Positions 12,236 through 41,846 of a stretch of DNA of 64,000 bases are shown here, one piece after another. The DNA comes from Polytrichum commune (Eukaryota > Streptophyta > Polytrichopsida > Polytrichales > Polytrichaceae): positions 43,176,758 through 43,240,757 of the forward strand of contig OX485805.1 of assembly GCA_950295325.1 (NCBI GenBank), in the 5' to 3' direction. Under the pieces are notes generated by a model. It was not told the origin of the DNA and ran no database searches. It saw nothing but the letters and a program-made list of their open reading frames with translations. Positions within the stretch are counted from its first letter, which is position 1; every line of letters starts with the position of its first letter. The translations under genes were made by a program, and so were the position numbers.

Positions 12236-12730
12236 GCCTTTATAATCCTCAAAGTTTACGGACGCGCGTCCGTAAACTTTGTGGATCTTTGTGTAGGTGA
12301 GAGACAAGCCTTTCAAACAACATATTACGCAAACGAAGCCAAATATTGTAATATTAGGCATATTAAAATAGCCTTTATAATACTCAAAGTTTACGGACGC
12401 GCGTCCGTAAACTTTGTGGATCTTTGTGTAGGTGAGAAACAAGACTCTCAAACCGCATATTACGCAAACGAAGCCAAATATTGTAATATTAGGCATATTA
12501 AAATAACCTTTATAATACTCAAAGTTTACGGACGCGCGTCCGTAAACTTTGTGGATCTTTGGGTAGGTGAGAGACAAGCCTCTCAAACAATATATTACGC
12601 AAACGAAGCCAAATATTGTAATATTAGGCATATTAAAATAGCCTTTATAATACTCAAAGTTTACGGACGCGCGTCCGTAAACTTTGTGGATCTTTGTGTA
12701 GGTGAGAAACAAGACTCTCAAAAATATATG
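12236..12730. repeat. 135-bp tandem array, four perfect 30-bp palindromes
   Basis: Perfect palindromes lie at 12,251-12,280, 12,386-12,415, 12,521-12,550 and 12,656-12,685, exactly 135 bp apart. Each extends the element A half-site by AAAG at the outer end. Units are nearly identical. Because 135 is divisible by three, both strands stay open, which creates false reading frames. The array is in the intron directly upstream of the start codon. Two more copies follow at 12,811-12,836 and 12,935-12,960 (degenerate). Confidence 0.9.
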
Positions 12731-13013
12731 TAGGTGAGAAACAAGACTCTCAAAAAAATATTAACCGTAACTTGAATACATTGATATTTACCACCATACT
12801 ATCTTTGCGAAGTTTACGGACGCGCGTCCGTAACTTATAGAGATATTTGAGTATATAATATACGCGTTATGCGTATTTGGAAGAAATGTATCTTTTCATT
12901 TGGATCCAAAAATGTAATTGAGACAATTTGGAAAACTTTACGAACGCGCATTCGTAAAGTATGATCTATATCTTTTGCCAAGAATTCTAACTTATCTATC
13001 TTATCATTTGCAG

Positions 13014-14301
13014 ATGGCATCTAAAAAGAGACATGCAATTGAGATGTTCGCAGAAGCTCTCATTCCTCCGCTACCAGAAGCCATCAAAGACATAAGTCCC
13101 AACGACCATTACAAGCCACAAGATGAAATTGTGGATAATTGGACAGTATTGGTAGAAAAGGACGAGAAAGAAATATTTGTGCTTAGATTTGCATATCAAA
13201 TGAAGACGGGCATAGATGAAGCTGAGAAGTGGATAAAGCTTAAATCGTGGACAGTAGAGTGTGCAGTGGCACAAGGGGATTATGTAGTAATAGACCTTGA
13301 GAAGAAAGAAGATCGGGTCACTTTCATTTTGCACGAATCCTACCACCCCTTCAACAAAAATGAGTGTGAGAATGCTAGTACAGATGCGGCTTGCTTCAAT
13401 CTCCAGACGGAGTTCCAAGACTATGCATGCAATGCACCTTGGACGGGTAAGCGGCTTGAACGACTCTTGAACAATGTAACAAGAGTAAATGGAGCCTTGC
13501 TAGAGGCCAGAAAGGGGAAAGATAAGAAAACAAATCGTTCCTGAACGACCCAAGCGTGTGCCTAAACCAGTGCCGGAATCCTCAAGGCCCTCGCAGAGTG
13601 GTGCATCAAGAGGGAGCAGACAGGCGAGTAAACGCTCTCACTCGCAGATGGACTCTGGACTAACAGAGGGTCCGGATGTCAGCTCTACACTGACTGTCGC
13701 TCCACTCCTCAAAAAGGGTCAACGCCCTGACGCCGAACTCTCAACAAAAATATTCCAAGAGTTCGATGAGAAGACGAAGGGATGCTGGCCCCTTGGCAGG
13801 TATTTTACTTTCGAAGTAGACGTCTACAAATGCCACAAGGGCACCGAAAGTATGAATACCAGAGCAAAAGAAGAAAGCGGTGTATGGTGGCAAATGAACA
13901 ACATCATGAACAACCCCAAGTTTGACAGGCAAACCATTTGTGTGACACCAAAGGATCCTATCGTTGAAGTCAACGAAAAAAATTGGCCGATTCTCAAGAA
14001 TGGAGAGTTCTACATTGTCCACGGCCAACATAGTGTAATGGCTGCAAAAGCTCTCCTTGAAGACGACGAGTGGAAAAGCCCATTAAAGGAGACAATCCGA
14101 TATTGGAAGGCATTCGTCGTGCATTCCAAGGACTCGAACCAACTCATAGCAATATCTGCCTTCATGAACCAGGGGAATAAAGTGAGGCAGTTCGAGGCTT
14201 CATGGGCAGCCAACATCGTGGCTGGGAGGACCTTGTGGGTGGAGCACGAATGTCCCCCAAAAGAAAGAGATAATGCTGTCGTGAAGAACCCAAAATGGCA
14301 G
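13014..14301 (+). CDS. Element A exon 1: N-terminal domain plus ParB/Srx-like domain
   Basis: The first 170 residues align loosely with copies B and C (a TVLVEKDEKEIFVLRF-like beta-rich stretch) and have no family I recognise. A basic linker rich in Ser, Arg and Lys follows. The second half matches ParB/sulfiredoxin-like folds, with the motif FYIVHGQHSVMAAKAL corresponding to DGQHx or GERRxxA loops of that superfamily. It ends in PPKERDNAVVKNPKWQ, nearly the same as PPKERENAKDKNPKWE in copy C. The frameshift lies in the linker between the two domains. Confidence 0.72.
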
Positions 14302-17300
14302 GTATGTTACTCAAATAGATTTACGGACGTGCGTCCGTAAATGTGGCCCTTCTCCTCCCACTGATTCAAATATTTGAATTTAATTTGTACTGAATTCAAT
14401 GTTCTGATTTCTTGCAATTCGCGCCTCTTGCAGACATTCAGCAATGCCATATTGACAAAGTTCTCGAGTATAGACATGAAGACAAGCGGCATGAAAACAG
14501 TGCATGAATTAAAAGGCGAACTCAAGCTCATCACTGCAACAGAAGAGACGTGGTCAATATGGTTGCGACTTTTCGATGCCCACAACAACGGCGACCTTGT
14601 CAATCCAGATACGGAGAACACCTACAAGAGCGACTCAAAAGTTAAGGTACCACCAATCCTGCGAGAGTTCTTTCGTCCCCTCCAAGGATTGATGGACTCG
14701 GAGCTGTACAGGGCAGCAGAACACATTCTTCTAGAAACTCCTAAAAGAACTCTGCCCTATCCCAAAATCTTTCTGAAGCGGCCGAAGCACATGAAGCCAT
14801 CCACGTACCACATTAAGGAATGGTGCGATTACAGAAAGAAGAAGACCATGGCTGTAAGGGAGATTAGCAAATTGCTACCCACCCACAACCTCATTAATAG
14901 TGATGGTGAGATCGTGTGGGAGAATTGGAGGAAGCTGAAGGGTGAATACCACATCAATGGCGTCTCAATGCGAGCTTTGATAAGAGGGGCATCATCCTTC
15001 CTTGCCCAACGATCCAGAAGGAACGAAAAGAAGGGATCCATCGACGAGAGGGAGGCAGGGTTGTATGTTCACTTTCTCGATAGGAAAAAGAACGCGAAAT
15101 TTGGAGGGTTTGCAAGATTCTGCACGGTCGCAAAGGGCATGAAGTTCGGCGCATGGGACACCCATGCTTCAAGAGCCTCTGTGAGAGATGACCCCAGGGG
15201 TTGCCTTTTCGCCATTTTTTATTTTCGTGCAATTCCCGGAGCATGGAAGCAAGACGTTGCGGGAGCACCCTTCTACGAGCCCTTCTTAAAAGCCTTCAAG
15301 AGCTATCGCTCGCCTGCCCTCTTCGAGCCTCATGTGTGGTTATGGATTGTAGAGCAAGAGAGGTCCACATCCATTGTCCATCTGTACACATCAACGATGG
15401 ACCTCGAATACGATATGTACCACAGCACCTACATCCCAGCGAAGACAGAAGGGATCACTTTCATTCAAGAGGCAAGGGGGGTGAAGCAAGTGGGAGCTGT
15501 GCAGCTTTATTTCTTAACACGCAAGTCTTCCCCAACTGGGCGATTGCCCATTAAACCACACGAGGTGTTCAGGAAAGTCTATTCGTTGCCGCCACCACAT
15601 CCCAAGGAGCTTGTTGAGGAGACAATGCATGCAATCTATCCGGCGTTCGAGCTCCGGATGGACTTTTATATAGGGGTCTTGAAGGCTTTAACTGTCATGA
15701 GTGAGACAGTTTACAACGTCTTCGGAGGCACGAAGTTTATGTATGCAGCACTGGTGAGTATTTGTTTGTCTTTCAACCCACCTATCTTTTGCATAGTTAT
15801 TTTACGGATGCGCGTCCGTAAAAACCCAGTATCAGGTGCATGTGAATTTTACGACCGTGCGTCCGTAAAATTGTCCAACTTTTGAGTGGTGGTTTTACGG
15901 ACGCGCGTCCGTATAACGTGTTGACATCTAGCCTCATTTATATGCAATCACCACTATTGTTCTTATCTAATTTTCTTGTTATGGTCCAGATGCTTGGCTT
16001 GCAGGTGAATTCTTTTGTGCAGGATTCCGACTACGATGACGCCCATACTCACAGGGTAATGGCCTCCAAAATGGATATCCAGGACATCATGGACGTCCTT
16101 ACACCCCATCCTGTTGTGCCTCTTTCTTCTAGAGAAGAGGCAATGCCCGGAATGGAGACAGACCCTGAAGAGGACCAAGATCCCAGTTCCCCAAGAGCGC
16201 AACCCTCCACACAGGAGCCTTTACACGGCCTTGTTCGCGACCCAATTAATCCAAGTGCTTTCCTGCTGGGAACAGACGACACGGATGCGCAGGAGGCACG
16301 CGTGAACTTCACTCTGATAAGGGTCCCTCATACCCCTGTTCTCTCACCTTTTGGGATTCCCACCTCTCGAGTTGGATTTCCCTCAACTGCGGGTCCATCT
16401 CGTGCTCCAAGAGTTATGGCCGAGAAGGATGTGGACCTTGCGGCAGAAGGCGGATGCACCGCTTCATCTGGAGGGGGATCTCAACATTCAGATCTACCCC
16501 CTATGGAGGGGAGGGATGTGCTGGAGTTGATATTGAGGCCTGATATCTCTCTATATCGTGAGAGTCGACGAAAGAGGAACAAGACGCCATACAACGAATA
16601 CCCTGAAGGCGCGGTCTTGGAGCTCTCCGATGAAGACGAGGATGAGATTAGGATTCACAATGCCATCTCTGCCTTGCCTACGGAACCTGGCAAGGTGAAG
16701 AAAGAGCCGATGTCAGTGTCCGAATTGGACGAGAAGATGGAGAGGCGAATGAAGGAAGAGCTTGACCAACGGCTTCGAGAAGCTAACGAGGAGCACGCCA
16801 AAAAGATGGCCGCCATCCAAGCTGAGATGGAGCAAGCTAGGTTGGAGTCTGCTCGAAGGCACGCCGATCTCATGGCCCAAAATCAACAGTTCTTGGCCCA
16901 AAGTCAACAATTTATGAGCCTGATGCAGAGCTTGCAGGCAAGACCCCCTGTAGTCTATACAGCTCCCGATGCCGTCATGTCTATGCCCCCCACTCTCATG
17001 CGGCCTCCGTCTAGTAGCCATGCGGTGTATATACCCGAGCATACTTATCCAGCCCCCGCGTTGATTGTCCCGCCCTCTCCCCTTGTTGTCGCCACTCCAG
17101 AGGAGCCCTCCTCTCATCCTACAGGAGTGGAGGAGATACCGGCACGTGACATGGCGGGTGCCGCCGAGACAGATGTCAATGAAGGCAATGCCCCCATCGG
17201 CGATGAAGATGTACATATGCGGGGCAGCCAAGACTCCACAGATGAGGATCAGCCTTACGTGGATACTCAAGGGTCGCAAGCGGCTGGAGACACCTTGTTG

Positions 17301-18513
17301 GTGGTCGAAGATCTGGACAATTTTGCGGACGCGCGTCCGGATCCTGTGCCCATGACGGGGCCAGGTGAGGGAGGCACTACTGGCACGGACCTCGCCCTTG
17401 AAGAGGTAATCAACCTTTGAGCATGCCTCCCATGTTACGGACGCGCGTCCAAAACTTCCTTGTCTGCCTCCTTCGTGGCGTGTGTATATTATCGAGTTCA
17501 ATCCTCGACTTCGCCCGGCGGGTGGATACAATTTTGTTAGCATAGATTCCATTAACTTCAACAAATATTTTTTGCGACAATGTATATTATTCACCAAATG
17601 TATATCACCAATTACATTAATACCAATTTTTCAACTAGATGGTTCGGATTATTTTTGGCCTTATAATTTGTGTTGAGTTTATCCATGCTTGTCAATTGGT
17701 TTTCTTGAGTAGTACCATTTACCTAGATAGAATGTTCCATCACAGGGTCCGTCGGAGATATGTCGCAACCCCGCGGAAAAACCAAGCGCGCCCATGATGA
17801 AACCGTTCATAATATTTGACCTCAATGGGGTGCTTTGTCAATCCAAACATATCTCGAATAGTGCGTCCAAAGGGCCCTTCCGTAGTCCACAAGACATGGA
17901 TTACGGCGGACATTTCGATACTCTCATAAATAAGAAGGTTGTACGTGCCCGCCCCGGTTTGAGGAGCTTCCTTCGTGAGGTCCTTGGCTTCGCCCATGTC
18001 ATCATCTGGAGCTCTATGCTCATGGACAACACGAAGGCCATCGTCGGTTTCCTTTTCCGAGAACTCGCAATGCCATGCTTGCTTCTCGGTCAAGAACACT
18101 GCGATGACCTCTATGACCGTAGTGGCAATATTGTACCCAAGGTCGGAGGAGGTCGTGGGCCTCAATTCTTAAAGGTCCTGAGGAAGAACCTCTGGGTGGG
18201 CGTCCCTATGTTGGAGGGGGTTCCCCACGGTTGTTGGCCCACCCCGGATAACACACTCCTCATTGACGACAGCCCGGCAAAGAGTATTCTCAATCCCCCG
18301 GGCAATTGCATATTCCCGGATCCTTGGGAAAGCGATAGAAATGACAACTTTCTAGAGAGTGAACTAGGACCCTACATTAGGAGGCTTGCCTATCACCCCG
18401 GAAGTGTCCCGGATTTTGTGCTCTCCAACCCAATTGGCAATAGGCCTCTAGGCCCACAAGATGAGGAATTTAGGAGATTGTACGGCTACGCTAGACTCAA
18501 TAAATTAATATGA
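13014..18513 (+). CDS. Element A large multidomain gene (ParB-like / SIM / HAD fusion)
   Basis: Four coding exons (13,014-14,301; 14,434-15,753; 15,990-17,405; 17,746-18,513) have GT-AG introns and phase-0 junctions. They give one protein of about 1,595 residues. The start ATG directly follows a splice acceptor (TTTGCAG|ATG), as in copy C. Order of parts: N-terminal domain, ParB/Srx-like domain, central conserved domain, acidic disordered segment with coiled coil, HAD domain. The only defect is a one-base frameshift between 13,504 and 13,541. Removing one A from the run near 13,527 would restore continuity. Copies B and C have the same plan. The protein is likely nuclear and may act on the element's own palindromes; this is inference from context. 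I know no named gene with this architecture. Confidence 0.78.
14319..14342. repeat. A-type palindrome in intron 1
   Basis: One 24-bp palindrome with centre GTGC sits 17 bases after the donor of the exon 1-2 intron. Copies B and C each have exactly one palindrome of their own kind in the same intron. Confidence 0.85.
14434..15753 (+). CDS. Element A exon 2: conserved central domain
   Basis: Uninterrupted, 440 codons. The homologous exon is 426 codons in B and 441 in C. Landmarks shared with the other copies are a KFSSID start, WxxWxxxFxxxxxGDxxxPDT, REFFRPLQG, HIL, the basic patch RKKKTM, and a C-terminal VFGGTKxxYA immediately before the donor. Several conserved Trp and Gly residues suggest a folded domain, but I cannot assign it to a known family. 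Confidence 0.75.
15800..15914. repeat. Three A-type palindromes in intron 2
   Basis: Copies lie at 15,800-15,823, 15,847-15,870 (degenerate left arm) and 15,893-15,914 in the exon 2-3 intron. The same intron holds one B-type site in copy B and five C-type sites in copy C. Confidence 0.85.
15990..17405 (+). CDS. Element A exon 3: acidic, SIM-like and coiled-coil segment
   Basis: It starts MLGLQVNSFVQDSDYDD, matching MLGLKMYSYIEDNDF in copy C. A disordered Pro/Ser-rich region follows. A hydrophobic-acidic motif AVLELSDEDEDE at about residues 207-220 looks like a SUMO-interaction motif. Next come VKKEPM, which fits the SUMO acceptor pattern, and a Glu/Arg/Gln coiled coil. Near the end the coding sequence contains an element A palindrome (17,322-17,341) read as FADARPDP. 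The exon ends at GAG|GTAATC, phase 0. Confidence 0.75.
17322..17453. repeat. A-type palindromes in exon 3 and intron 3
   Basis: One copy at 17,322-17,341 is within coding sequence. A second at 17,434-17,453 is just inside the following intron. Both keep GCGGACGC or ACGGACGC arms. Their placement repeats in copies B and C with different sequences. Confidence 0.8.
17746..18513 (+). CDS. Element A exon 4: HAD/NIF-type phosphatase-like domain
   Basis: After acceptor CACAG the frame is open from the first base (GPSEIC...), so the domain is joined to exon 3 rather than starting at the ATG 48 bases in. HAD motif I is FIIFDLNGVL, motif II is VIIWSSM, and motif IV is LLIDDSP. This order and the spacing match NIF/SCP/FCP1-like CTD phosphatases, as in plant HAD proteins with DLNG. 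The second Asp of DxDG is Asn, so general acid/base catalysis is probably lost or weakened. The end, LNKLI-stop, is conserved in copy C. Confidence 0.8.
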   Translation, partial: GPSEICRNPAEKPSAPMMKPFIIFDLNGVLCQSKHISNSASKGPFRSPQDMDYGGHFDTLINKKVVRARPGLRSFLREVLGFAHVIIWSSMLMDNTKAIVGFLFRELAMPCLLLGQEHCDDLYDRSGNIVPKVGGGRGPQFLKVLRKNLWVGVPMLEGVPHGCWPTPDNTLLIDDSPAKSILNPPGNCIFPDPWESDRNDNFLESELGPYIRRLAYHPGSVPDFVLSNPIGNRPLGPQDEEFRRLYGYARLNKLI

Positions 18514-18605
18514 AAACTTTGATGATTTTGGGTTTGTACTTGGACTCTCCATGTAAATATCTAACATTTCTCCCCTTATCTTTGTAATGTATTTTTGTGT
18601 CTTAG

Positions 18606-19502
18606 TTGCCTCACCAAGCACCCAAAAGTGTCGTCAATGGCATGTCTGCATCTCAGGCAGACACCGGCTCCCTTTCCCTTGGTATGAGCGACGTTGCAAT
18701 GCCTTCACTATTCCAATATTCGGCCGTCGATGCTGCCTCTGCTGTTGATTACTCCAAAGACTCCGGGTTTGAAGACGGAGTCGTGGATAGCCCTCCTGCA
18801 AAGGTTGCAAAACTCAATTACTCTCCAAGTCCATCTCCATCTCCCCTCCGCAGTGAGAAGCACGTCCGTAACCCACGGTCGACCAGACGCCTTTGCATGG
18901 ATGAACCCCAAATTGATGTCCCGGCGTTTGCGAACGTCCCTCTCGGGCTTGTATCTACACCCGTCGATGTCCCAAAAGCTCTAACCAGCGCCCCAAAGGC
19001 GAAGGTGCCCAACTATTGGCATTCTCAAGTTTTTCCTTGATGATTTCCGTGTATTAGTGCATTTCAACTTCTTGGGTTTTTCGGACTTCCATCCATAACT
19101 TGTAACCACTTATACTAACCCACTTCATTATATATATTTATGGTCATTGTTCAGACCCCAATGTACACGAATGTGGGCCGGGCATCATCGACTTCGTCAT
19201 TGGATAGGCGAACACTGAAGACAGCTTCTTGCGAGTCTGATCGTTGTTTGGCCCTACGGAAGAGTGCAAGACGTTCGGTTTCCCAAACGCATTCGTATTC
19301 CACTTATTCGGAAGGGGGTCGGCAAATATGGGCAAATGGCGCATATTCGGGGTCAACAAATAAACAAGGTTACAGCCGCGGACCCGAGATCTTTAGAGCC
19401 ATGGAGGCCATGAAAGCAAAGGAACGTGAAACGGCCGTAAATGCTAATAATAGTATTGCAAAAGCAAAAGTAGTGAGTCGTAATCATGATCCGAACGTAT
19501 AG
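18606..19502 (+). CDS. Element A small downstream gene, unknown function
   Basis: Two exons (18,606-19,004 and 19,155-19,502) join in phase 0 across a GTGCCC donor and a TTGTTCAG acceptor. The product is about 245 residues, or 234 from the ATG at 18,642. It is rich in Ser and Pro, with DYSKDSGFEDGVVDSPPAK in the first exon and GYSRGPEIFRAMEAMKAKE in the second. Copy C preserves both motifs (DYSKEPIDAGVIDSPPPK; GYSRGAEIFRNVEAMRAKE). It begins 92 bases after the HAD stop codon and could be an alternative 3' part of the same transcript. AATAAA at 19,599-19,604 could serve as its polyadenylation signal. I do not recognise the family. Confidence 0.55.
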
Positions 19503-19784
19503 GCTATATTAACATACATGTAGTTGTGGAATTATGTTTCTAGGACTTTCGCCTAATATTGGATATTCCACTTGCATTTTGTACTTCAACCCCTATTCAA
19601 TAAATATGATATTGATTTTCCATATGCAAATGTTTTCATATATCCCATTTTCTTATTGTTAATGTGTAGTTCCATGCATTTGAGTCTCTTATTTGTTTCC
19701 AAAATTGGGAACATAGCATATTTTTAGTGTTTTCATTCCTATAAATGTGAAAGCCACGTCCTTAAATAGTCTCAAAATTAACAA

Positions 19785-19812
19785 AAAGTCTCCAAATAAC
19801 GAATATAGTGTT
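19785..19812 (-). repeat. Element A right terminal inverted repeat
   Basis: Reverse complement of the left end with one mismatch. It is followed by CAAT (19,813-19,816). The neighbouring subterminal sequence, with paired GAGAC/GTCTC, matches the end of copy C at 44,562. Confidence 0.82.
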
Positions 19813-19816
19813 CAAT

Positions 19817-24115: not shown

Positions 24116-24421
24116 CCCACGGGTGTTCACCCGTGGACTGTGCACTCGCCAAGTGCAGAGGCCCACGGGTGAACACCCGTGGGCGTCTCCACTCATCTGG
24201 TTGGAAGTGCCCACGGGTGTTCACCCATGGGCCTGACCACTCACCAAGTGGAGAAACCCACGGGTGAACACCCGTGGGCGTCTCCACTCATGTGGTTGGA
24301 AGTGCCCACGGGTGTTCACCCGTGGGCCCTGGCACTCACCTGGTGGGGAGGCTCACGGGTGAACACCCGTGGGCACTTCCAACCAGATGAGTGGGGACGC
24401 CCACGGGTGAACACCCGTGGG
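24116..24421. repeat. B-type palindrome array, seven copies, about 47-bp spacing
   Basis: 22-bp palindromes start at 24,116, 24,162, 24,210, 24,257, 24,305, 24,352 and 24,400. The two arms are CCCACGGGTG and CACCCGTGGG with a central TT or AA, so orientation is defined and mostly alternates. The spacers are themselves repeated and carry CACTCAC and CANNTG-type motifs. The array lies in the 5' intron of copy B's gene. Confidence 0.9.
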
Positions 24422-24767
24422 CCTCTCCACTCATGAAAGTTTGAGAAGGGGACTTCATCAAATTCTAATCCACCTCCATAATGAATTTGATACGAGCGTA
24501 AAACATTGATTTTGCGTAATCTTATTGGTGTGGAGTCAAGGTTGTTATGTTATTTCATATTAATTTATTTCAAAATGGCATATTCTTGCCATTCACACCT
24601 TTCCCAAAGTTTTAAAACTTTTAGATTTATTTCATTTCTCTATATGAAATTATAAAGTTCAATAAGTCCACTCATGCAATAGTCAAAAGCATTAATCCAC
24701 GTTCCAACTTGCATCTTTGATTTTTTCATTTTCCAACCACCCATGTGGTGGGAAGAGCCCACGGGTG

Positions 24768-24920
24768 GTCACCCGTGGGCCTTGGCACTCACCAGGTGGA
24801 GAGGCCCACGGGTGAACACCCATGGGCCCTGGCACTCACCTGGTGGGGAGACTCACGGGTGAACACCCGTGGGCTTTACACTCACCTGGTTGGAAGTGCT
24901 CACGGGTGTTCACCCGTGGG
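24768..24920. repeat. Second B-type palindrome array, four copies
   Basis: Palindromes lie at 24,768-24,789, 24,805-24,826, 24,852-24,873 and 24,899-24,920, with the same spacers as the first array. Together, 11 sites lie upstream of the start codon at 25,101. Confidence 0.9.
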
Positions 24921-25100
24921 CCTGTGCACTCACCAAGTGGAGAAGCCATGGTTTGATAACTTTCTCTTGGTTTTTTTATGTACACATAGTTGTTAGGTCT
25001 TTGCATACATTTGAAGGTTCTAGACATAATCATGTGATAGACAGTTGGTGTTTCATTCAGGTGCATAGAGGTGTCGAAGTGATATCTCATTTGAATAGAG

Positions 25101-26580: not shown

Positions 26581-26602
26581 CCCACGGGTGTTCACTCGTG
26601 GG
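26581..26602. repeat. B-type palindrome in intron 1
   Basis: A single copy, one mismatch in the right arm (ACTCGTGGG), in the intron equivalent to the one holding a single site in A and in C. Confidence 0.85.
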
Positions 26603-27963: not shown

Positions 27964-28069
27964 GCAAGTATTGAGCATTTTTTCCCCTTATTGTTTATTG
28001 AATTTCGCGGTATTATCGTTAGTTTGGATGATGTACTAGATAACCTAAACCACAAACCGAGTGGAGAGG

Positions 28070-28091
28070 CCCACGGGTCAACACCCGTGGG
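28070..28091. repeat. B-type palindrome in intron 2
   Basis: CCCACGGGTC and its partner arm lie in the exon 2-3 intron, the position that holds three sites in A and five in C. Confidence 0.85.
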
Positions 28092-28301
28092 CCTAGACAT
28101 CCACCTGGTTGGAATCCACGTGCACTATATCCACATGGTTGATAGCCACCTGGTTGATAGCCACCTGGTTTATAGGTTTCCAAAAAATTGGTTGGTTGAC
28201 AGTCAACAAGTTGAGAGCGTTGGTTTGATGATTTTCATTTCGCTTTTGATGTAGACAAATTTGATTGAGAAGTTTGTTTTGTCATTCCTTGGTTTTTGCA
28301 G

Positions 28302-30035
28302 GCCTTGGGTATGAAGGTTTTGAATATTGTGCCGGTGGAGATGCTAGAGGTGGCAAAGACGAAAATGATTTCCGCAATTGACTGGAGCCTACAAAGGTGG
28401 AATGAAGAAGGAAAAGTCGTTGCCCAGGACATGGAAGAGGAAGAAGGACGTATCGTGGGGAGAAGCGAGCATGCCAGGGACACAGTTGAAGAGGAGGAAG
28501 AGGAGGAGGAGGAAGAGGAAGAGGTGGAGGACGAAGATAGCCCAATTGTTGTCCTAGGGGAGTCTGAAGAGGAAGAGGAAGAGGAAGAGGAGGAGGAGGA
28601 GGATGATGTCATGGACGAGGTACTTGCGGAGGCCATGGCGGAGGCGGAGGAAGAGGCCTTCAATTACAAGGTATCGGCCATGGCCATGTCCCCGGAGGAG
28701 GTTCCCCACGGGTGTTCACCCGTGGGGGAGGGGGAGGGGGAGGACAAGGACGAGCGGCAAGAGGATGCTTCCAACCTAGAGGAAGTTGTTCGTCCACAGT
28801 CCGAGCACAGTGTCTGTCTCCCTATGGGATCTATCTCGTCCGGGATCCCATCTACACCCGGCCGCGGGTTTGTACAAGTGGATACATCTAGACGAAGTGA
28901 AGAACAACCAGATGTTCAACCTATGGAAGAATCTAACGAGGATGAGCGTCCGCGGTCAGCAGAAGCAGATCAAGTGGGGGCTAATCCTGTTGGAAGGTCT
29001 ACATCGAAACCGTCTGCAAGGAAGAAAATGAAAGCTCCCCGAAGGGGAAGGTCATCTCTACGTCCCCCTAGAGTTGGAGATCATTCACGGTCTTCGGAGG
29101 CAATGGAGCATTCTGGGCTTCATACCGAGGTTGAATTTGGCCAAGTAGCGGATGTGCAGGATGTTCCGCGTGATGCAATCATGTCTGAAGCTGTGCATGT
29201 TGAAGGGGCAAGCACAGATTTGAATGTCAGCTCACCTGTGGAGGACGTTGCCGCTGCCGTTCTCGAGGTCCTAGGCCATGGGCGATCACACCGACATTCC
29301 CCTGATGTTGTGGATGCAGAAGAGCCTACTGTAGCGGCACCATCCAATGAAGCAGAGGAGGTTATTCGAACCGAAGTCATATGCTTGGATAGTGATGACG
29401 ATGTGCCCGAAAGATGCGTAGAACTAGATGTGAGGGTGAAGGTGAGAGATCGAGTTCCACATCGGGTTCGGGGGACGTTTGCTGACTACATGACGGATGA
29501 TTCCGAGGATGAGGATTATGGGAAACCCGGGTACAACAGAGTAAAACTCAACTTTGTTGATGACCCTCACCCGGTGTTTGCTGGGAGACCTAACATGGGC
29601 AAGGAATCGGATGGGAAGGACAAGGTGCATGTTGCCCCATTTGTGGACAAATATTTGGTAGACGTACCCGAGAATGTGCGATTGAATCTGGCGCATTTGT
29701 ACAAGTCGTACGACTATCACAAGATGTTCACTTATCTCTCCACTCCAGCGTTTTGTGAAGCAGTGAAGGTGAAACATATTCTTCATGCTGCTGCATTAAA
29801 GAAAATGAGAAAGAGATGGACAGCGTTCGAAGCTCCCAAACATCGTGAAGAACGAGGTCAATTCGCGGGGTCCTCAGCCGCTCAAGCCGGCAGTGTTGTG
29901 GACTCTACGTTGGAGATCATTGACATTAGTGGAGTGCCAGAGTCTCCAAGGAGGGAAGTCAATGTTGCAGTTGCGGAGTCCTCAAGCCCTCATGTCGAAC
30001 GTGTTGCTGAGGGTCAACCGGCATCGTCCGAAATG
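28302..30035 (+). CDS. Copy B exon 3: Glu-rich, SIM-like segment
   Basis: Open for 578 codons. It starts ALGMKVLNIV, matching MLGLKMYSYI in C. Long Glu runs lie at about residues 65-105. The palindrome at 28,705-28,726 is translated as PHGCSPVGE. A strong SUMO-interaction-like motif EVICLDSDDD lies at about 29,373-29,405. It ends at ATG|GTAATAC, the same junction sequence as copies A and C. Confidence 0.7.
28705..28726. repeat. B-type palindrome inside coding exon 3
   Basis: A perfect copy of the B palindrome lies in frame within exon 3. The corresponding exon also contains family-specific palindromes in A and C. Confidence 0.85.
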
Positions 30036-30245
30036 GTAATACATACTACCTTTCCAATGCAATATTGTGTTTATCTTGGAAGCAAAGTCGTCAAGATTTC
30101 TAAAAGTGTCTTCGCAATAGGTGTTGGTTGCGACAGAACGGGATGTCATTCCACCGAGTTCTCATGACGACCCTGCACATGGTGGGGATCCCCCCCCAAG
30201 CCAAACTCAAGGTATCATATATAGTGTTATTTGAATGCAATTGGT

Positions 30246-30370
30246 CCCACGGGTGAACACCCGTGGGGCCACCTGGTTATACTTTTCAATTTCCATACAA
30301 ATTGTTATCTCTCGAGTAATATTTATATAAGGGATTTTTGATATTGTGCCCACGGGTGTTCACCCGTGGG
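30246..30370. repeat. Two B-type palindromes before the HAD exon
   Basis: Copies at 30,246-30,267 (central AA) and 30,349-30,370 (central TT) lie in an intron between exon 3 and the HAD exon, where A and C each have one copy. Confidence 0.85.
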
Positions 30371-30630
30371 AGATTATGGGTTTGAGCGTGTGGATCTCAT
30401 AAGTCATGTGTGCATGTGGTCACAGGTCATACAGCCACTGCCGGAATACCACCTTCGGTACGATATTTTACTCGATCTCGCAGAACTAATCCATAAATGT
30501 GGAGGCATTATTTTATCTTGCATACTGATGTGTACCCAACGTGTTGTTTCATTCGATAAAAATCATGTAGAATATACATTTTCCTTAGATAGAAATCCTT
30601 TACAATGACTTTCAATTTTGTCATCGCCAG

Positions 30631-31413
30631 ATCCTCACCTCTCCAACCACTGTTGTCCATCGGAGAGAGAAGATATGGTTAGTGCTGGATGTGAACGGGA
30701 TCTTGGTGAGGTCAACAAAGTGCGACAATGTCAACACCAGGAAGACTCTTGAATCACAACATAGCCCTCAGATAACTGGGGAGTTGGCTCCACTCTTTCT
30801 CCCATATAGTGCCCTCATACCTAGGAAAGGACTGGGACGCTTTCTGCGTTTTGTTCTTTCAAACTTCCATGTCGTCATCTGGTCGTCGAAGCTTATGAAG
30901 AATCTTCAGCCAATTGTCCGGCACTTCTTCAATGGTTGTAGACATCCAGAGTATGTGTTTGGGCAAGAATTGTGTCACACTCTGAAGGATGAGAGAGGAC
31001 AAGTTCTTCCTAGTCCTATGAATGCTGATTCAAGCTTCTTCATGAAAGACCTGTGCGCATTTTTTGAGTGGAGCCGGACGCATCCAGTGCCGCATACGAA
31101 GCAACCCAGTCATAGGACTACATTACTTGTTGATGACTCCCCTTACAAATGCATCCCAAACCCTCCTGGGAGCTACATTAACCCTCCCCCATTTATGTCA
31201 ACCCAAAGCTTGGATACTTTGCATAGTTACCTGCAAAGGCTCTTGAGTTCTCAACAGTATGTGCCAGATTTTGTGGGGAGCAACCCTTATCCATCAGGAC
31301 AGGGACCCTTCAATTTAGAGCTGCCAAGTTCTCAAATTTATAAGCAATCATTAGCTAGACATAAAATACTGACTTCTGCCCGTATGGTTCCAGAGGCTCA
31401 GATGTTAATGTAG
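30631..31413 (+). CDS. Copy B HAD/NIF-type domain
   Basis: Open for 260 residues after acceptor CGCCAG. Motif I is WLVLDVNGIL, motif II VVIWSSK, motif IV LLVDDSPYK. As in A and C the second motif I Asp is Asn. The C-terminus diverges (no NKLI end). It is joined to exon 3 through two short exons (30,121-30,211 and 30,426-30,457) that keep the frame open. Confidence 0.72.
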   Translation: MLTSPTTVVHRREKIWLVLDVNGILVRSTKCDNVNTRKTLESQHSPQITGELAPLFLPYSALIPRKGLGRFLRFVLSNFHVVIWSSKLMKNLQPIVRHFFNGCRHPEYVFGQELCHTLKDERGQVLPSPMNADSSFFMKDLCAFFEWSRTHPVPHTKQPSHRTTLLVDDSPYKCIPNPPGSYINPPPFMSTQSLDTLHSYLQRLLSSQQYVPDFVGSNPYPSGQGPFNLELPSSQIYKQSLARHKILTSARMVPEAQMLM

Positions 31414-33058: not shown

Positions 33059-33059
33059 C

Positions 33060-35750: not shown

Positions 35751-37229
35751 GTTTGGGTCGAACGACCCAAACCAAAGAGTTAGTTTGGGTCGAGCGACCC
35801 AAACCCAACAGCCGACAGCTGGTTTGGGTCGAGCGACCCAAACCCAACAGCTGGTTTGTGTCGCGCACCTCTCCATGAGGAGTGCCCGAAACACCATGGG
35901 CACAAGGGGGACCCCGGAGTGACACCCGGGACTTGTGGCGCTGTTGGTGAGAGGGCCCAAGTGATCCTAGTGTGGGTGAGGGCCCCGGGCGTTGGGAACG
36001 CCTCCCACCCACGAAGACTAGTAGGCATGAGGGTAAGGCCATGAGCTATGTGTAGCTCATGGCGTGGTGATTCTAGAAAGCTCAAGAACACCTCAATCGG
36101 AGGTGTGAGGTAGGAGTTATGGCCATTTGAGTGGGGCGCTGTCCCGGGACAGCGCCCTGGTACAGCAGTGCCTGGGAGTGATTCCCGGGACTGCCAAGGT
36201 TCAAACAGGCATAGCGTCCTCAATACTTGTCCGAATGGGGCAAGTGAGGAGTCCATCGGCATCTACGTGAAGCGTAGATGAAGATGGAGTGGTTGGTTGT
36301 TATGATCAGACATCATACAAGGAAGTTATGATGGTCTGAAGCTGCTAGGGGGTTCTAGGCCCAGCAGCTAAAGGAAAATGTCCACTTGGCCCCAACTCTT
36401 GGTGGAGAGACAAGAGGTTGGTTGACGGTGGGGTAGGGGCCCCGCGTGAAGTCCTAGAGGCTTATATGGGTGAGGTGGTGTGGCCTCACCCACCTGAGGC
36501 CGAACGGCATGGCCTCCATGGGCATTGGCCCATTGTGAGGCCATAGTTGCCTAGTATGGTTCGGGTTGTTGTAGTGTTGCTCCGGCAACGCGATGATCAA
36601 CATAGGATTGGACTTCCATGGATGGAAGTCCACATCTAGGAATGGGTTACCGATTAAGGGGTGAGTCCCGAAAGTAAAGTAGGAGGGTTGGTTCCCTCCT
36701 ATGAACTATAAGGTCCGGGGTAGGAGGAGCTAACCATTAGCATGGCGGAATGCGAATGGTTAGCGCTCGTAACCTTTGCTAGAATTGAAAATTGGCAAGA
36801 TTGTCAAGGGAGGCTAGCAAGGGTTGCGACAAATTGGGTCGAGCGACCCAAACCCAACAGCTGGTTTGGGTCGAGCGACCCAAACCATGGAAAAACATAT
36901 TCATATCGATCCAATAAAATTAAATCTCATGAAACAAATTTATTATACAGATCTATTTTGGGATGTACACTTATATCTAAAAAATATGAAAGTTACCAAA
37001 AAACAAAGCACTAATAATTATTTGACCTACTATCTCAAAATTTGTATTGCACGATCGAGCTAATTTCATACAGCAGATAATTGTTGCCAATTATCAAACC
37101 CACTACTGGCTTGTGTTTGGGTCGATCTACCCAAACCTGCCAATTCGTGACCTCAACATATATGACATCGGTAATTCCCGTCAACATGCTAATATACATT
37201 TGTAATAGTTTGGGTCGAACGACCGAAAC
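35751..37229. repeat. C-type palindromes in the 5' intron
   Basis: Copies lie at 35,751-35,772, 35,783-35,804, 35,822-35,843, 36,832-36,852, 36,864-36,885, 37,115-37,136 and 37,208-37,229. The arms are GTTTGGGTCG and CGACCCAAAC with a central AG in most copies. The interval 35,859-36,831 is the LTR insertion, which splits the array. Confidence 0.88.
35859..36831. mobile_element. Solo-LTR-like insertion inside the palindrome array
   Basis: The 973-bp segment starts TGTCGC and ends GCGACA, so it has TG...CA ends. It separates 'ctggtttg' from 'aattgggtcgagcg'; removing it rebuilds a normal C-type unit. The flanks allow a 5-bp duplication with two mismatches (GTTTG / AATTG) or a 3-bp TTG duplication. 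It has no coding capacity and is more GC-rich than its surroundings. A solo LTR is the simplest reading; a small TIR element is the alternative. Confidence 0.55.
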
Positions 37230-37254
37230 TAATAGCGTTGTGGTTTTCTTGCAG

Positions 37255-38583
37255 ATGGCCCCCAAAAAAAGACCTGGAGAGAGATGGTTTATGATCGCAC
37301 CAGATGTGGTTTGGCAGGAACACAAAACACCTGAAGATGAATCTTATGTGCCTAAGGATGGGCTGGTGATTGCGTGGTCTCTCCAAGTGGTGAAGGCATC
37401 TCAATTCAAGATCCTCTTTGTGGTGAAAATTGGGACAGTGGATCAAAACACATGGGCAACTTTGACGGGGTGGGAGGTGGCGTCAGTACAGGCTCTAGGT
37501 GACTACGTGGACGTCATACTCGAGAATTCTGCAATGCAGAATGCGCACATGTTCATGCATCAATTCTCCGAGGCATTTGACCCCCTGTACGTAAAAGAAA
37601 CTTGCATTGAGCGAGAGGTTATTAAACCAGAGTCTATCTTCATAGATGGAAGCATTTCAAACACAAAGGTGGCAACCAGGTTTACAAAGCTTAAGCAAGC
37701 AATCAACGCATTAAACAAGGCTCAACAGAGCAAGTCAAAATCACAACAGCTGGTGAGGAGGAAGGCCACAACAGAAGAAGGCGCGGGCTCGTCGAGACCT
37801 CAAACAGTGAGGAAGCTGCGGGCGGTTCCAGCTGACTCAAGAAGAACCATGCCTACGGCAACACCGGCGGATAGTGAGACACCCACGCCATCAAACAACC
37901 GTCAGACAACTCCTTCAAAGAGGCAAAGAAAATCGGCATCAGTTATGACGGACGAGCCAGTTTCCCCAGAACTGCGTATGCCAAAGCCCGGATAAGAAGT
38001 GGATGCGTCTGAGATCCAAAGAATCGTGAACAATTTCACGACCAAGTGTTCTCACTGTTTCTTCATGGGTAGGGATTTCAAATTTGACATCAATATTGCT
38101 CAGTGTCACCTAGCCCCACCAGAAAAGTGTGTTCGGGCAAAGGAAGATGCCTACGTCGATTGGATAATCGCCCAGATAGTGAGCGAGCAATTCAAAGACA
38201 ATAGGCAAACTATTGTAGTCATGCCCCAGGGACACGAAAGAATGCCCACTCCGGATATGTGGCCGTCAATTCAAAAAGGCGATTTTTGGCTAATTGACGG
38301 ACAACACAGCGTGGAAGCGTCGAAGAAAATCCAACTCATGGCCGAGTGGGATGATCCCAATAACCAAAAAGATAAATTGAAGGTGTGGAAGGCCTTGGTG
38401 GTGTGGTCAGATGACGAAACCAGACTCAGTGACATCTCCCGCTACTTCAATATGGGGAACAAGAAACGGGCATACCAAGCTTCGTGGATTCGCAACATCA
38501 TGGCCTCACGCGAGGTGTGGGAGTTCTACGGCAGGCCTCCCAAGGAGAGGGAGAATGCGAAGGACAAGAATCCAAAGTGGGAG
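37255..38583 (+). CDS. Copy C exon 1: N-terminal domain and ParB/Srx-like domain
   Basis: It starts MAPKKRPGERW. The N-terminal domain runs to about residue 165, then a Lys/Ser/Thr-rich linker. After the in-frame TAA (37,993) the frame continues with the ParB-like domain, with FWLIDGQHSVEASKKI and a terminal RPPKERENAKDKNPKWE. The linker position of the break is close to the frameshift in element A. Confidence 0.7.
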
Positions 38584-38592
38584 GTGAGTGTG

Positions 38593-38614
38593 GTTTGGGT
38601 CGATCGACCCAAAC
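38593..38614. repeat. C-type palindrome in intron 1
   Basis: A perfect palindrome with centre GATC, nine bases after the donor of the exon 1-2 intron. It is the counterpart of the single sites in A and B. Confidence 0.88.
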
Positions 38615-38715
38615 CCTTGTAAGAGTTAATATTCACGGTTTTTCATCTAAGCAAATGTCCAACTAACATATACATATCTAACATGCATTTCTATGTTTAT
38701 GTGCAATATTTCAAG

Positions 38716-40038
38716 TACCAAATGATCAATAAGTTCTCCTCCATTGACAATGCGAGTCACAAGCAAAAGAAATATAACGAGTTGCGAGGAGAAATTTATT
38801 TGATAACAGCATCCGACCATGTCTGGTTGAAGTGGAAGAACGTGTTCGAGAAGCACGAGACGGGGGACCTGATGGATCCCGACACAGGCCTGCTTTTCAA
38901 CTCGACCGCACGTTTCAAGCAGCTCAAGCCTTTGATGAGAAAATTCTTTCGAACACTCCAAGGGCTTTCGGAGACAGACATGGGGAAGGCGGCCACGCAC
39001 ATCCTGCACGTCGAGCCCACGGCAAAGAGATGTTGGGTGCACCCAAAGATAGTCTTCTCCAAGCCTAAATCATTCATTCCTTCATGCTACACCATGAAGG
39101 AATGGACGGAGAATAAGAAGAAGAAGAACACCATCGTCCAAGAGTTGCACAAGATAGTCCCCGAAATGAACCTTTTTGTGGATGGCGAGGTCCACGACGC
39201 AAACTGGAAAGCATTCAAGGCGGAGTACAAGTTCACAAGTGCATCTATGGCGGCTCTCATCAGGGAAGCGGGGGAAGACTTCCTGCGGTCTAAGCTGGTG
39301 AAAGGTGGGAAGAATCGGGCACTTCCCGATCACACAGCGCGTGTCTTCTCGAATTTCATAAAGGAGAAGAGAATAGTCAGTTTTGAGGGGGACGCGCATT
39401 TCAACCTTGTCACCCTGGAGCCTCTAAAAATCCAGGGGTGGCCTGGCGTTGAGGCTCGCAAGACGATAAGGACGAATGCTGGGGATCGATTCCCCTTTGG
39501 GATGATAGACTTCAGGAACATTCCTGGAAGTTCGTTTGAGGGTACTATGAGCACCCCCTTCTATGAGCCCTTCTTATCAAAGTTCGTCGACTATGCAAGT
39601 CCCAAATTTAGGGAGGTCGACATTTGGTTGTGAATAGTCGAGGATAGGAAGGCGGAGCAGGTATATGAGATTGCGAGGAAATTGCAACCTGATTATGCTG
39701 TCTCTAAATCTCATTACATTGTTGCACCGGCGGAGGGGTCTTACTCGACGTTGAAGGACAAAAAAACAAAGCTTGTCGACGTATTGTGTTTGTACTTTGT
39801 ATACAAAGCGAACTTGCTGAAGGTCGACAACCACCCCATAAACCGGATGGAAAAACTCTTCCAAGTACCAGAGGGGTTGGGTGCCAGCAAGAGCCTCTAC
39901 GACGAGGCCAAGTACGCGAACTATACTGCCGGCGAGCTGCGGATGGAGTTCTACTTACGGATAATGAGGGCCTTGACAAGAAGAGGGGATTCTATTTTCA
40001 ACGTCTTCGGGGGTTCCAAACCTATCTATGCTGGCATG
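38716..40038 (+). pseudogene. Copy C exon 2: central domain with one stop
   Basis: 441 codons. It contains KFSSID, DHVWLKWKNVFEKHETGDLMDPDT, RKFFRTLQG, the basic NKKKKNT patch and a final FGGSKPIYAGM, all aligned with A. The TGA at 39,631 replaces the Trp of A's WLWIVE. The acceptor used (TTTCAAG|TAC) is inferred from frame. Confidence 0.7.
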
Positions 40039-40067
40039 GTAAGTAACTTCAAAATAGTTGGTTTATA

Positions 40068-40233
40068 ATTTGGGTCGAGCGACCCAAACTTGCCACAGTG
40101 AAGGTTTGGGTCGAGCGACCCAAACTTGCCACAGTGATGGTTTGGGTCGAGCGACCCAAACTTGACACAGTGAAGGTTTGGGTCGAGCGACCCAAACTTG
40201 ACACAGTGAAGGTTTGGGTCGAGCGACCCAAAC
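40068..40233. repeat. Five C-type palindromes at exact 36-bp spacing, intron 2
   Basis: Copies start at 40,068, 40,104, 40,140, 40,176 and 40,212. All have the same central AG orientation and 'ttg[ac]cacagtgaagg' spacers. They lie in the exon 2-3 intron. Confidence 0.92.
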
Positions 40234-40327
40234 CTTTTGTATTGGTTTTCTCTTATTGTTTCTTTTTCTTGTTCTTGGTGTAATTTAATGAGCATATCTC
40301 TTATCCAAGTTCTTTTTGAATGTCCAG

Positions 40328-41803
40328 ATGTTGGGTTTGAAAATGTACTCCTATATAGAGGACAATGATTTTCAATTTTACAAAACCCAAAAAGCCCTAG
40401 CCAAGAAGATGGACATCCTCGATTGGATCCCGGGGAGCTACATGGAGGAGATTGTAGAGGGGGGTGAAAACCCGATGGATATGGCAAGGCGTGTCAACCC
40501 TGCAGAATTTGCCACGAGTGCTCCAGTTGGAGCACCCGAACCACTCGTAGGATTGCATCCGGGTACCTCATCTCGGGGGCCAGGTGACGAGGTGGAGGAG
40601 GAGGAGGAACAAGAGGACCATAAGGCGGAAGGGGAGGTAGAAGAAGGAGCAACGGGTTACACGCAAGAATCAGAAGCCCCCCAATGGAAGAAAGCTATGC
40701 GGGTGGCAACCCCGCAAAGCAAGTTGGTGCCCGTCCTCACGGTGGACGATGCTAGAGACATGTACTCCAGGGACGCGACAGCAACGTTCAGGGAGAGGAG
40801 GAAGTTGAAGGGGAAGAAGCTCTACAGCGACTACGCAAGGGAGGAGACCATCGCCATAAGCAGCGAGGACGAGGACGATATGGAGCTCGCCAAACGGCTC
40901 AGATCGGATCCCCCCTCCCCGACATCGTTCGCAGGCATGGTTAGGGTGAAACCAGAAGTCCTGACTGTGGAGGAGGCGAACGAGAAGATGCGGAGGGACG
41001 AGGAGCAGCGAGTCCGCATGCAGAAGGTTGCCGTAGAAGAACCCTCAATGCGGAACGAGCTAGCAGAGTTGAGGGCTCTCCTATTGGAGCAGGAGCGACA
41101 AAGGGCGATGGCCCAACCTCCATCCAGCGCCGAGCTGATATCGCAGGTCATTCAAGGAATGTGGGCGCAAGGATTGGTGGTGGCTCCCTCGAGCGCCTTT
41201 CCGCACTTGCCCGCCGGCTTCCCTGCCCAGAGCATTCCTCAACAGTCTGTGCCGCAAGCGTCATTCAGCTTCCAACACATGATGCGGCCACACAATGTCC
41301 CCTACGCCCCGGTCCAGCAAGTGGACGATCCCAACATCTGGCGTGTCTCTGGAGCCTCCTCTCCTTTGGGGCCTCCACCACTTCGGCCCCCCATAGTGAT
41401 GGCGCCCCCTCACCAGCATGACGACCCCCGAATGTTTGGGTCGGATGACCCAAACACACCCCCCTGTGTAGTGCCACAAGGGAACTACCCCGATGCAGGA
41501 CAATTTGGGTCGGGTGACCCAAACCTTGGTGCAGGACAGTCGTCCCTTGACCAACATGGGTGTGAAAAAGACACAACCATGTTAGATGTTGAAGGCCTGC
41601 AAGGGCCTGGTGATACCTCTACTCCTAACCAAGTCGATGAACCCATGCATGATGCACATGCGGAGATTGGTTTAGGACAAGGGCCTGATCCTGGACCTTT
41701 GCAGGAGAAGGTTGCTGATGTCGTTGAAGAAGGCGTTGGAGAGAGAGGAGGGGCAGCGCAGACGATGGAGCCCTCCACGGCATCGAGACATGACCAGGGC
41801 GAG
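40328..41803 (+). CDS. Copy C exon 3: acidic, SIM-like segment
   Basis: Open for 492 codons. It starts MLGLKMYSYIEDNDF. Glu-rich stretches follow, then TIAISSEDEDD (SUMO-interaction-like, about 40,849-40,884), then VKPEVL, which fits the SUMO acceptor pattern and aligns with VKKEPM in A. A coiled coil and a Pro/Gln-rich tail come next. The palindromes at 41,436-41,457 and 41,502-41,523 are translated FGSDDPN and FGSGDPN. Confidence 0.72.
41436..41523. repeat. Two C-type palindromes inside coding exon 3
   Basis: Both keep the GTTTGGGTCG / GACCCAAAC or TTTGGGTCG / GACCCAAAC arms; the centre varies (GA and GG). The reading frame runs through them. Confidence 0.8.
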
Positions 41804-41824
41804 GTAATACACTGAAACCTCTCA

Positions 41825-41846
41825 GTTTGGGTCGATCAACCCAAAC
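41825..41846. repeat. C-type palindrome in intron 3
   Basis: One copy with one arm mismatch (GATCAACCC) lies just after the donor at 41,804. A has one copy and B two in the matching intron. Confidence 0.82.

Follow-up and report, generated by a model that had tools for sequence, protein, structure and literature searches.

Self-recognition by transposons is an already known kind of system. The Spm protein TnpA binds subterminal motifs, clustered within a few hundred base pairs (bp). The VANC proteins of VANDAL elements bind short motifs in introns and other non-coding parts, with methylation lost over the whole element, and AT9TSD1 carries a VANC6 motif though it is no VANDAL (available text of PMC5735166); TnpA, in the available part of PMC10398659, is said to activate its element with DNA demethylation. 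A ParB-related protein enters this picture in Ectocarpus, where the element Sola1-1_Ec32 has a ParB-methyltransferase accessory gene whose product was suggested to bind its own transposon (PMC12477816, in the part available, with its refs 50 and 51), the only case of ParB in eukaryotic transposons that we found in the open-licence literature; the ParB-family protein VirB, which needs cytidine triphosphate, offsets silencing by H-NS (PMC10653881, available part). A survey of the ParB fold gives sulfiredoxin as its commonest eukaryotic form, and the accessible portion of its text has no words in 'plant-' or 'transpos-' (PMC12704722). Here we analyse a stretch of 64,000 nucleotides from Polytrichum commune (the window; C3:43176758-43240757 of a genome of 407.8 Mb in 64 contigs) with three genes, A, B and C, which carry family-specific palindromes and which, by analogy with these systems, probably form part of an anti-silencing self-recognition system.

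Palindrome classes and their co-divergence with the protein

The original prediction held that the three genes are related and bear different palindromes at corresponding positions. The genes are indeed homologous by protein comparison, with A and C sharing 39% identity in the exon 1 domain and 37% in exon 2, and B more distant (21-23% in the exon 1 domain, 36% to A in an exon of NIF type). A de novo scan without prior motif, followed by a consensus scan, recovered the palindromes where they had been placed, those in exon 3 of A and in its next intron being imperfect (16/20). The scans also turned up sites absent from the original list, namely A-type ones and a D-like one in and 5' of a divergent gene of element A, B-type ones beyond the NIF-type exon of B, and weak C-like matches (Table 1). 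The family is multicopy: candidates for A, B and C were found on all seven large contigs, copies with identical domains (100%) lie on different contigs, and the window holds three different element families side by side; a local tandem array of three genes was ruled out, as copies are dispersed over C1-C7. Protein searches with exon 1 domain queries returned 939 (A), 951 (C), 432 (B) and 865 (E, a further group) first-look candidates, with 150 scored for each query, and we assembled a set of 43 copies comprising the three window genes and 40 fetched for diversity, a non-random choice, with exon boundaries set by homology and reading frames rather than transcripts.

Each of the 43 copies has one main palindrome class with 3-24 members, versus a largest cluster of 1 in dinucleotide shuffles (20 per copy). 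The nine classes of the window genome are all 22-bp dyads built of a half-site, two central bases and the reverse complement of that half-site. Read towards the axis, the half-sites are A TTTACGGACG, D TTTACGAACG, C GTTTGGGTCG, B CCCACGGGTG and B2 CCCACGGGCG, together with E1 CTTCCACTCG, E2 CTTTCACTCG, E3 CTTCCTCTCG and E4 GTTCCTCTCG (one copy, L014, was assigned to E1 by hand, its consensus having one undecided base). The core is CG-NN-CG, with TG-NN-CA in B alone. Information content drops sharply past position -11 in A, D, C and B2, suggesting a recognition element of about 22 bp; it goes up again at -13 in A, and in B and the E classes conservation extends further outward. Classes differ by one to eight bases per half-site, close ones by one, and the architecture common to all of them points to stepwise variants and not to unrelated sequences. 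The earlier description of the three palindromes as entirely different was in this respect an overstatement, and the accompanying idea that whole sets of sites were replaced together stands as far as sites change in concert, with stepwise variants in place of unrelated sequences. A simple tandem-repeat artefact was ruled out, since dispersed sites behave alike.

Sites 5' of exon 1 are present in 43/43 copies and intron 1 sites in 41/43, which bears out the conserved placement that had been proposed; intron 2 and exon 3, for which it was also proposed, hold sites in part of the copies, an undercount because 20 of the 40 fetched copies are pieces of 4.0-4.2 kb, most of which stop close to intron 2 or where exon 3 begins. 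Altogether 503 sites were placed, 280 of them 5' of exon 1, 102 in intron 1, 67 in intron 2, 24 in exon 3 and 28 further on. Under uniform placement about 120 would fall in exon 1 and 138 in exon 2; exon 1, as delimited by homology, holds none (in the 13 E copies its N-terminal part is undelimited, and a site near its start would count as 5'), and exon 2 nominally holds two, both B, in an over-long frame. Exon 3 sites occur in C, A, B and B2, and the D copy L004 has two inside its exon 3 frame; none was recognised in the E copies, where exon 3 is likewise undelimited. A divergent transposase-like gene, described below, likewise has arrays of the element's own class at its 5' side, in A (both the window copy and L041) and in a single copy of each of B, C, D and E; one site lies between open reading frames (ORFs) of this gene in A, and one in B.

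Mixing of palindromes within copies, which would have told against the prediction, is slight, with 493/503 sites nearest their own class, a measure of uniformity because the class labels derive from the same sites whose purity is counted. Exact genome-wide counts are 713 for A (24-mer), 644 for B and 9231 for C, with 0 for reversed controls. When the first 50 places listed for A and for B, all on C1, were compared with gene matches, 49/50 A places lay within 15 kb of an A-family match (expected share 0.7%) and 37/50 B places within 20 kb of a B-family match (expected 0.5%); none of these places was near the other family's genes among the matches listed. The one remaining A place falls in a diverged fragment of an A element, which has ten sites. 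Random scatter over the genome, which would have spoken against linkage to the gene family, is thus absent for the listed A places and for most of the listed B places, with B-type sites in an unrelated repeat, considered below, as the part that does not conform.

Motif identity tracks protein phylogeny, as had been anticipated: motif distance and domain distance are correlated across the 43 copies with a Mantel r of 0.888, reached by 0/5000 permutations, and 40/43 copies share their motif with their closest neighbour by protein, the neighbours of the exceptions (L012, L014 and L018) being one base away. On a maximum-likelihood tree, where 12/40 inner branches are starred and 14 open, the nine classes need 8 label changes, the minimum, compared with at least 25 (mean 29.9) in 300 shuffles. 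Because common descent alone gives correlation, tests of concerted change and of conservation islands matter. Position -5 is A in 184/184 D half-sites and G in 188/204 A half-sites; B2 has its own base in 71/74, and B, E1/E2 and E3/E4 are clean, E1 having 3 E3-like bases in intron 1. Identity in aligned introns and in the A 5' region is 89-99% inside sites versus 47-69% outside (89% versus 47% in intron 1 of A and D together), a contrast inflated in arrays by an aligner that stacks repeated motifs; in five C copies the corresponding values for coding exon 3 are 96% and 83%. At the level of sequence, concert and islands argue against common descent as the sole cause of the correlation.

The same arrangement appears in a second source. 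An exon 1 profile scan of public prokaryote contigs returned three loci from one bin labelled as a Synechococcales cyanobacterium (L059-L061; CADCWO010000269.1, CADCWO010000243.1 and CADCWO010000074.1), which we take to be eukaryotic contamination because exons 1 and 2 are split. L059 and L060, 77% identical, have the common motif ATTCAGCTCG-NNN-CGAGCTGAAT, and L061 (26-27% identity) has TTTATCCTCG-NNN-CGAGGATAAA. All three have sites in intron 1, and L059 and L061 also have them 5' of exon 1, a region of which L060 includes very little; L059 and L061 show three other palindromic matches outside their class (shuffles 0.08-0.11 on average, at most 2), and none of the nine window-genome half-sites was found in L059-L061. 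Layout, CG core and co-divergence therefore recur with two more classes, here with a spacer of three bases.

The host transposons and the predicted protein

Genes A, B and C are accessory genes of large DNA transposons, with CACTA-type ends seen in A, C and D. Element A ends in AACACTATATTCGTTA...TAACGAATATAGTGTT, inverted, with a 4-bp flanking repeat CAAT at 2526-2529 and 19813-19816, and a second A copy has TATA on both flanks. Terminal inverted repeats with CACTA (AACACTA) are present at both ends of A in the two copies; the right end of C in the window reads CGAATATAGTG at 44550-44560, the element ending near 44562, and CACTA-type left ends are present in a C stretch (L044) and a D stretch (L043). 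An end was not found in the E stretch, and none was assignable to B. Target-site duplications of the CACTA superfamily are 3 bp long, unlike the flanking repeats of the two A copies, which are 4 bp if the terminal repeat starts AACACTA.

Opposite the accessory gene in A, B, C and D lies a gene with the domain DUF7869 (PF25273, E value 1e-40 within 3799-4806 of element A); a homologous ORF stands beside E (BLAST only), and DUF7869 was not found in the ORFs tested beside window genes B and C, which are part of the ORFs there. No mention of 'DUF7869' was found in the open-licence literature. Between A and D the DUF7869 part is 88% identical and the accessory domain about 49-53%, and between A and C the values are 72% and 39%, so that the accessory domain diverges faster.

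The likeness to VANDAL/VANC lies in an element-encoded protein, family-specific non-coding motifs, tandem repeats and motif-protein co-divergence (PMC5735166 and PMC10398659, available parts). As there described, VANC motifs are 8-9 bp long, in contrast to the 22-bp dyads seen here, with their constant core and their presence also in coding exon 3, and the string 'palindrom' is absent from the available text of both papers. Here, too, the ends are of CACTA type, the paired gene carries DUF7869 and a ParB fold is predicted, and an anti-silencing effect is known for VANC only. Pfam reported DUF7869 (in A, B, C and D) and no Mutator-like element (MULE) family in 12 transposase-side ORFs of A, B, C, D and E, so the MULE-type (MuDR) transposase that marks VANDAL membership was missing from them; the VANDAL/VANC parallel first drawn for these genes is apt for a possible mode of action and finds no support as to membership, given the DUF7869 gene and the CACTA-type ends. 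With Spm TnpA the elements share CACTA-type ends and an element-encoded protein, and differ in that the sites of element A are not subterminal and the flanking repeat is 4 bp. In the algal ParB-methyltransferase case a giant element likewise has a gene for a ParB-like domain on the opposite strand from its transposase; the available part of PMC12477816 mentions no target sites, and the candidate methyltransferase part here comes without a catalytic motif and with a NIF-type domain.

For the domain of A that contains the GQH[S/T] motif, an AlphaFold2 model from the three window sequences has a mean pLDDT (predicted local distance difference test) of 65.8, residues 31-160 reaching block means of 70-91. 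Its best structural matches are ParB, Noc and KorB (7bnk: VIA Z 11.3, root-mean-square deviation 2.1 Å over 95 residues), followed by sulfiredoxin and serine kinases at Z 7-8, and the core domain of the accessory protein is on this modelling predicted to have a ParB/Noc/KorB fold. Predicted fold and palindromic sites are what it shares with bacterial ParB, Noc and KorB and with VirB; it differs from them in an altered nucleotide motif, in lacking a recognised helix-turn-helix, in its setting in a eukaryotic transposon and in its extra exons and NIF-type domain. Searches of exons 1-3 against Pfam, NCBIfam and PHROGs gave no significant family, the best leads, a ParB-like one (phrog_1033, E value 0.019) and YEATS (0.018-0.04), being below cut-off, and a phage collection searched with the GQHS domain gave no match at E 0.1. 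Two matches in PDB sequence searches, of the exon 1 profile to Nup62 (E value 0.008) and of the exon 2 profile to a cytochrome c555 trimer (9.7e-5 over 40 residues), were judged to be chance. A modelled exon 2 structure (pLDDT 43.8) gave weak acetyltransferase- and methyltransferase-like matches, at best Z 5.9, and was not used as fold evidence.

A, B and C each have, further downstream, a NIF-type (CTD-phosphatase) exon. The catalytic motif of such domains is DxDx(T/V); here it reads DLNGV (A), DVNGI (B) and DLNGV (C), which suggests from sequence that the domain may be inactive. The window copies of A and C have broken reading frames, and in many other copies of gene A exon 1 is a single open frame of 474 amino acids.

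Candidate readers of the palindromes

We propose that the accessory gene encodes a ParB-fold protein that would bind the 22-bp palindrome of its own family as a dimer, at its own promoter and that of the divergent transposase-like gene, at intervals through the introns and, in some families, in exon 3. Bound to the DNA of its own family alone, the protein would keep the element accessible and counter host silencing, as with VANC and Spm TnpA. On balance we lean towards this reading as a whole; that the accessory protein, and not the paired transposase or another protein, binds the sites, does so as a dimer and may spread from them, and that anti-silencing results, is what we infer. Binding by this protein is favoured by the constant dyad, the avoidance of exons 1 and 2, the presence of arrays at the two promoters and the spread through the gene, as well as by the concerted changes and the co-inheritance of the sites with a fast-evolving protein of predicted ParB fold, and the analogies with VANC, TnpA and VirB point to anti-silencing. 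A bolder form of the proposal, which we put forward tentatively and consider rather doubtful, would make the protein a eukaryotic ParB-type clamp, nucleotide-gated, that loads at parS-like palindromes, spreads along its own transposon and excludes the silencing machinery, loading site and protein having moved together one base per half-site to give at least 11 self-recognition codes.

Several observations weigh against these proposals. The motif-protein correlation would arise from common descent alone, and the contrast between sites and surroundings is, as noted, inflated in arrays. Ten of the 503 sites come closer to a related class than to their own (5 D-like in A, 2 B-like in B2 and 3 E4-like in E1), and four of the nine lone B places were fetched, all of them members of a single unrelated repeat family with 3-4 B-type sites at each place (L047, L048, L050 and L051; C1 near 62.62, 47.97, 28.02 and 65.85 Mb), 93-98% identical in its main aligned pieces and with many internal repeats. 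These sites are evidence against strict linkage; a possible explanation is motif piracy, and they resemble the sharing of the VANC6 motif by AT9TSD1 in the available account of that repeat. Two of the five GQHS-domain models are poor (mean pLDDT 38 and 35), the model being built from three sequences, and the best Foldseek matches, to Noc and ParB, have E values of 0.003-0.01, with none at E 0.001. The conserved nucleotide-binding motif of ParB is GERR; at its position 16/16 aligned copies read GQHS or GQHT, which makes gating by nucleoside triphosphates doubtful. A helix-turn-helix was not identified, the only lead being phrog_6826 at an E value of 0.19. Finally, the palindrome reader could be the paired transposase-like protein, since the initial segment of its gene (window 5623-6351) has diverged as much as the accessory domain, to 53% identity for A versus D and 52% for A versus C.

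This last point keeps in play the view that the palindromes are sites of the paired transposase-like protein, serving transposition or regulation like CACTA subterminal repeats. They do lie in and beside its gene, and the specificity of its diverged first part could differ between A and D; the outermost sites of element A, however, are about 2.3 kb from both ends, and A and D have different palindromes despite nearly alike ends and DUF7869 parts, so that a role in cutting is less likely, and in L059-L061 the sites stand around the accessory gene alone, on short contigs. We hold this view to be improbable. Much the same low standing falls to self-marking by DNA modification, in which a gene descended from ParB-methyltransferase transposon proteins would mark or read N4/N6 methylation at the palindromes. 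It draws on the published ParB-methyltransferase accessory gene opposite the Ectocarpus transposase and on similar proteins in algal transposons (PMC12477816, available part), on the exon 2/3 junction, NVFGGTKFMYAAL/MLGLQVNSFVQDSDY, which by eye resembles motif I of N4/N6 methyltransferases, and on weak modelled fold matches to CcrM, M1.HpyAVI, PvuII methyltransferase and MTA1; but the exon 2 model is poor and acetyltransferases rank equally high in its matches, a DPPY-like catalytic motif was not seen, and no profile hidden Markov model (HMM) supports a methyltransferase domain in exons 1-3. An hhalign comparison of spliced exons 2-3 with methyltransferase-like ORFs gave no signal, in a set in which the exon 3 starts of L011 and L014 were not found, so that L011 was entered without exon 3 and L014 was dropped, and its positive control (L054 against bacterial-type methyltransferases) also failed.

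More serious to us, though still unlikely, is transcriptional autoregulation alone, in which the protein would activate or repress its own two promoters in the conventional way, sites within the gene would be enhancers or by-products, and silencing would be unaffected. The majority position of sites 5' of exon 1 (280/503) and the arrays at the 5' side of the transposase-like gene would suit such a switch, as would the fact that KorB, one of the ParB-fold matches, is a plasmid repressor (PMC11790492, in the part available); conserved sites deep inside the gene, some of them translated, nevertheless exceed what a promoter switch needs. Hardly credible, by comparison, is an absence of function, whereby tandem-repeat amplification and descent with the element would account for everything: several arrays are tandem and common descent yields correlation, yet single scattered sites, those in coding exon 3 included, are better conserved than their flanks and change in step, placement avoids exons 1 and 2, and the layout is repeated in the second source. 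We give equally little credence to a recruited host factor as the binder, with another role for the accessory protein, since a shift of specificity through nine classes along with the element's protein is not expected of it. Among these possibilities, anti-silencing through an accessory protein that binds its own family's sites remains the one we prefer.

What appears to be new is the pairing of transposon self-recognition with a protein of predicted ParB fold and a series of codes whose stepwise changes can be seen. Within a single genome, at least nine protein-site pairs form a natural series on one binding architecture. This makes it testable in what way a DNA-binding protein and its many scattered sites shift specificity in concert, whether private codes let elements evade silencing and whether eukaryotic chromatin is a target of ParB-fold proteins; such pairs could also serve as orthogonal DNA-binding modules.

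Features of the window and further observations

Table 1. Annotated features of the window (positions counted from its first nucleotide; single numbers in the remarks are site centres unless stated otherwise)
Feature	Position	Strand	Remarks
Element A, 17.3-kb DNA transposon	2530..19812		both limits mark where pieces of another copy (L041, L042) cease to align
Divergent transposase-like gene with DUF7869	3187..6351	-	ORFs 3187-3795, 3796-4806, 5005-5622, 5623-6351
A-type palindromes in and 5' of transposase-like gene	4805..7457		centre 4816 between two of its ORFs; 6542, 6627, 6880; D-like site 6422; 95-bp array at 7063-7443
A-type palindromes 5' of exon 1	12245..12960	+	135-bp array of four and two more, last D-like; 12265, 12400, 12535, 12670, 12823, 12947 (D-like)
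Gene A exon 1	13014..14301	+	N-terminal domain; GQHS domain 13675-14301; frame broken near 13504-13544
A-type palindrome, intron 1	14319..14342	+	14330; de novo scan
Gene A exon 2	14434..15753	+	no confident fold; end resembles methyltransferase motif I by eye
Three A-type palindromes, intron 2	15800..15917	+	15811, 15858, 15904; palindrome and consensus scans
Gene A exon 3	15990..17404	+	A-type site 17322-17341 (16/20; 17332) translated within FADARPDP
A-type site, intron after exon 3	17434..17455	+	17444; 16/20 outer positions
Gene A NIF-type (CTD-phosphatase-like) exon	17731..18513	+	PF03031, E value 4e-13
Gene A likely further exons	18606-19040, about 19151-19502	+	reading frames
Eleven B-type palindromes 5' of exon 1	24116..24921	+	24126-24909
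Gene B exon 1	25240..26445	+	GQHT domain 25972-26442
B-type palindrome, intron 1	26581..26602	+	26591; de novo scan
B-type palindrome after exon 2	28067..28094	+	28080; taken as intron 2; frame continues through
Gene B exon 3	28302..30164	+	B-type site 28704-28727 (28715) translated as PHGCSPVGE
B-type sites 3' of exon 3	30242-30271, 30349-30370	+	30256, 30359; palindrome scan
Gene B NIF-type exon	30589..31413	+	PF03031, E value 4e-11
Further B-type sites	31657-31676, 32507-32528		31666, 32517; weak one at 32888; consensus scan
Seven C-type palindromes 5' of exon 1	35751..37231	+	35761-37218; split by ~1-kb insertion 35845-36833
Gene C exon 1	37254..38583	+	GQHS domain 37999-38583; in-frame stop before 37996
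C-type palindrome, intron 1	38592..38615	+	38603; de novo scan
Gene C exon 2	38718..40038	+	stop before 39634
Five C-type palindromes, intron 2	40069..40236	+	40078-40222; 36-bp array
Gene C exon 3	40329..41803	+	C-type sites 41433-41456, 41504-41523 (41444, 41513) translated as FGSDDPN, FGSGDPN
C-type site after exon 3	41825-41846	+	41835; palindrome scan
Gene C NIF-type exon	42246..43100	+	stop-interrupted; both halves align to A NIF exon; second half PF03031, E value 0.0013, below cut-off
Gene C likely last exons	43232-43624, 43698-44015	+	
Weak C-like matches (16/20)	43653, 44191, 44291, 44389		consensus scan

Within the insertion that splits the 5' palindromes of gene C, parts of 36151-36352 are 76-79% identical to the unrelated repeat family that bears B-type sites. 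About 2.4 kb past the end of the C element, AAGTTTGGGTCGAGCATTTTGCTCGACCCAAACTT at 46931-46965 is a C-type half-site pair with a longer spacer. A C-rich tract with CCCCGTCCG-type repeats lies between elements A and B (20871-21973), the repeat scan detected telomere-like ACCCTAA repeats, and on the minus strand at 54384-58076 there is a long leucine-rich-repeat frame with about 22 copies of a 144-bp repeat. Elsewhere in the assembly, short contigs (C10, C12 and C23; L056 and L057) gave bacterial-type ParB and ParB-methyltransferase matches and are perhaps contaminants or phage-like. A separate repeated nuclear ORF family of 577 amino acids (L054 at C1:9.66 Mb and L055 at C4:44.11 Mb) matches the N6/N4 methyltransferase family PF01555 and has DIPYG or DIPDG instead of DPPY.

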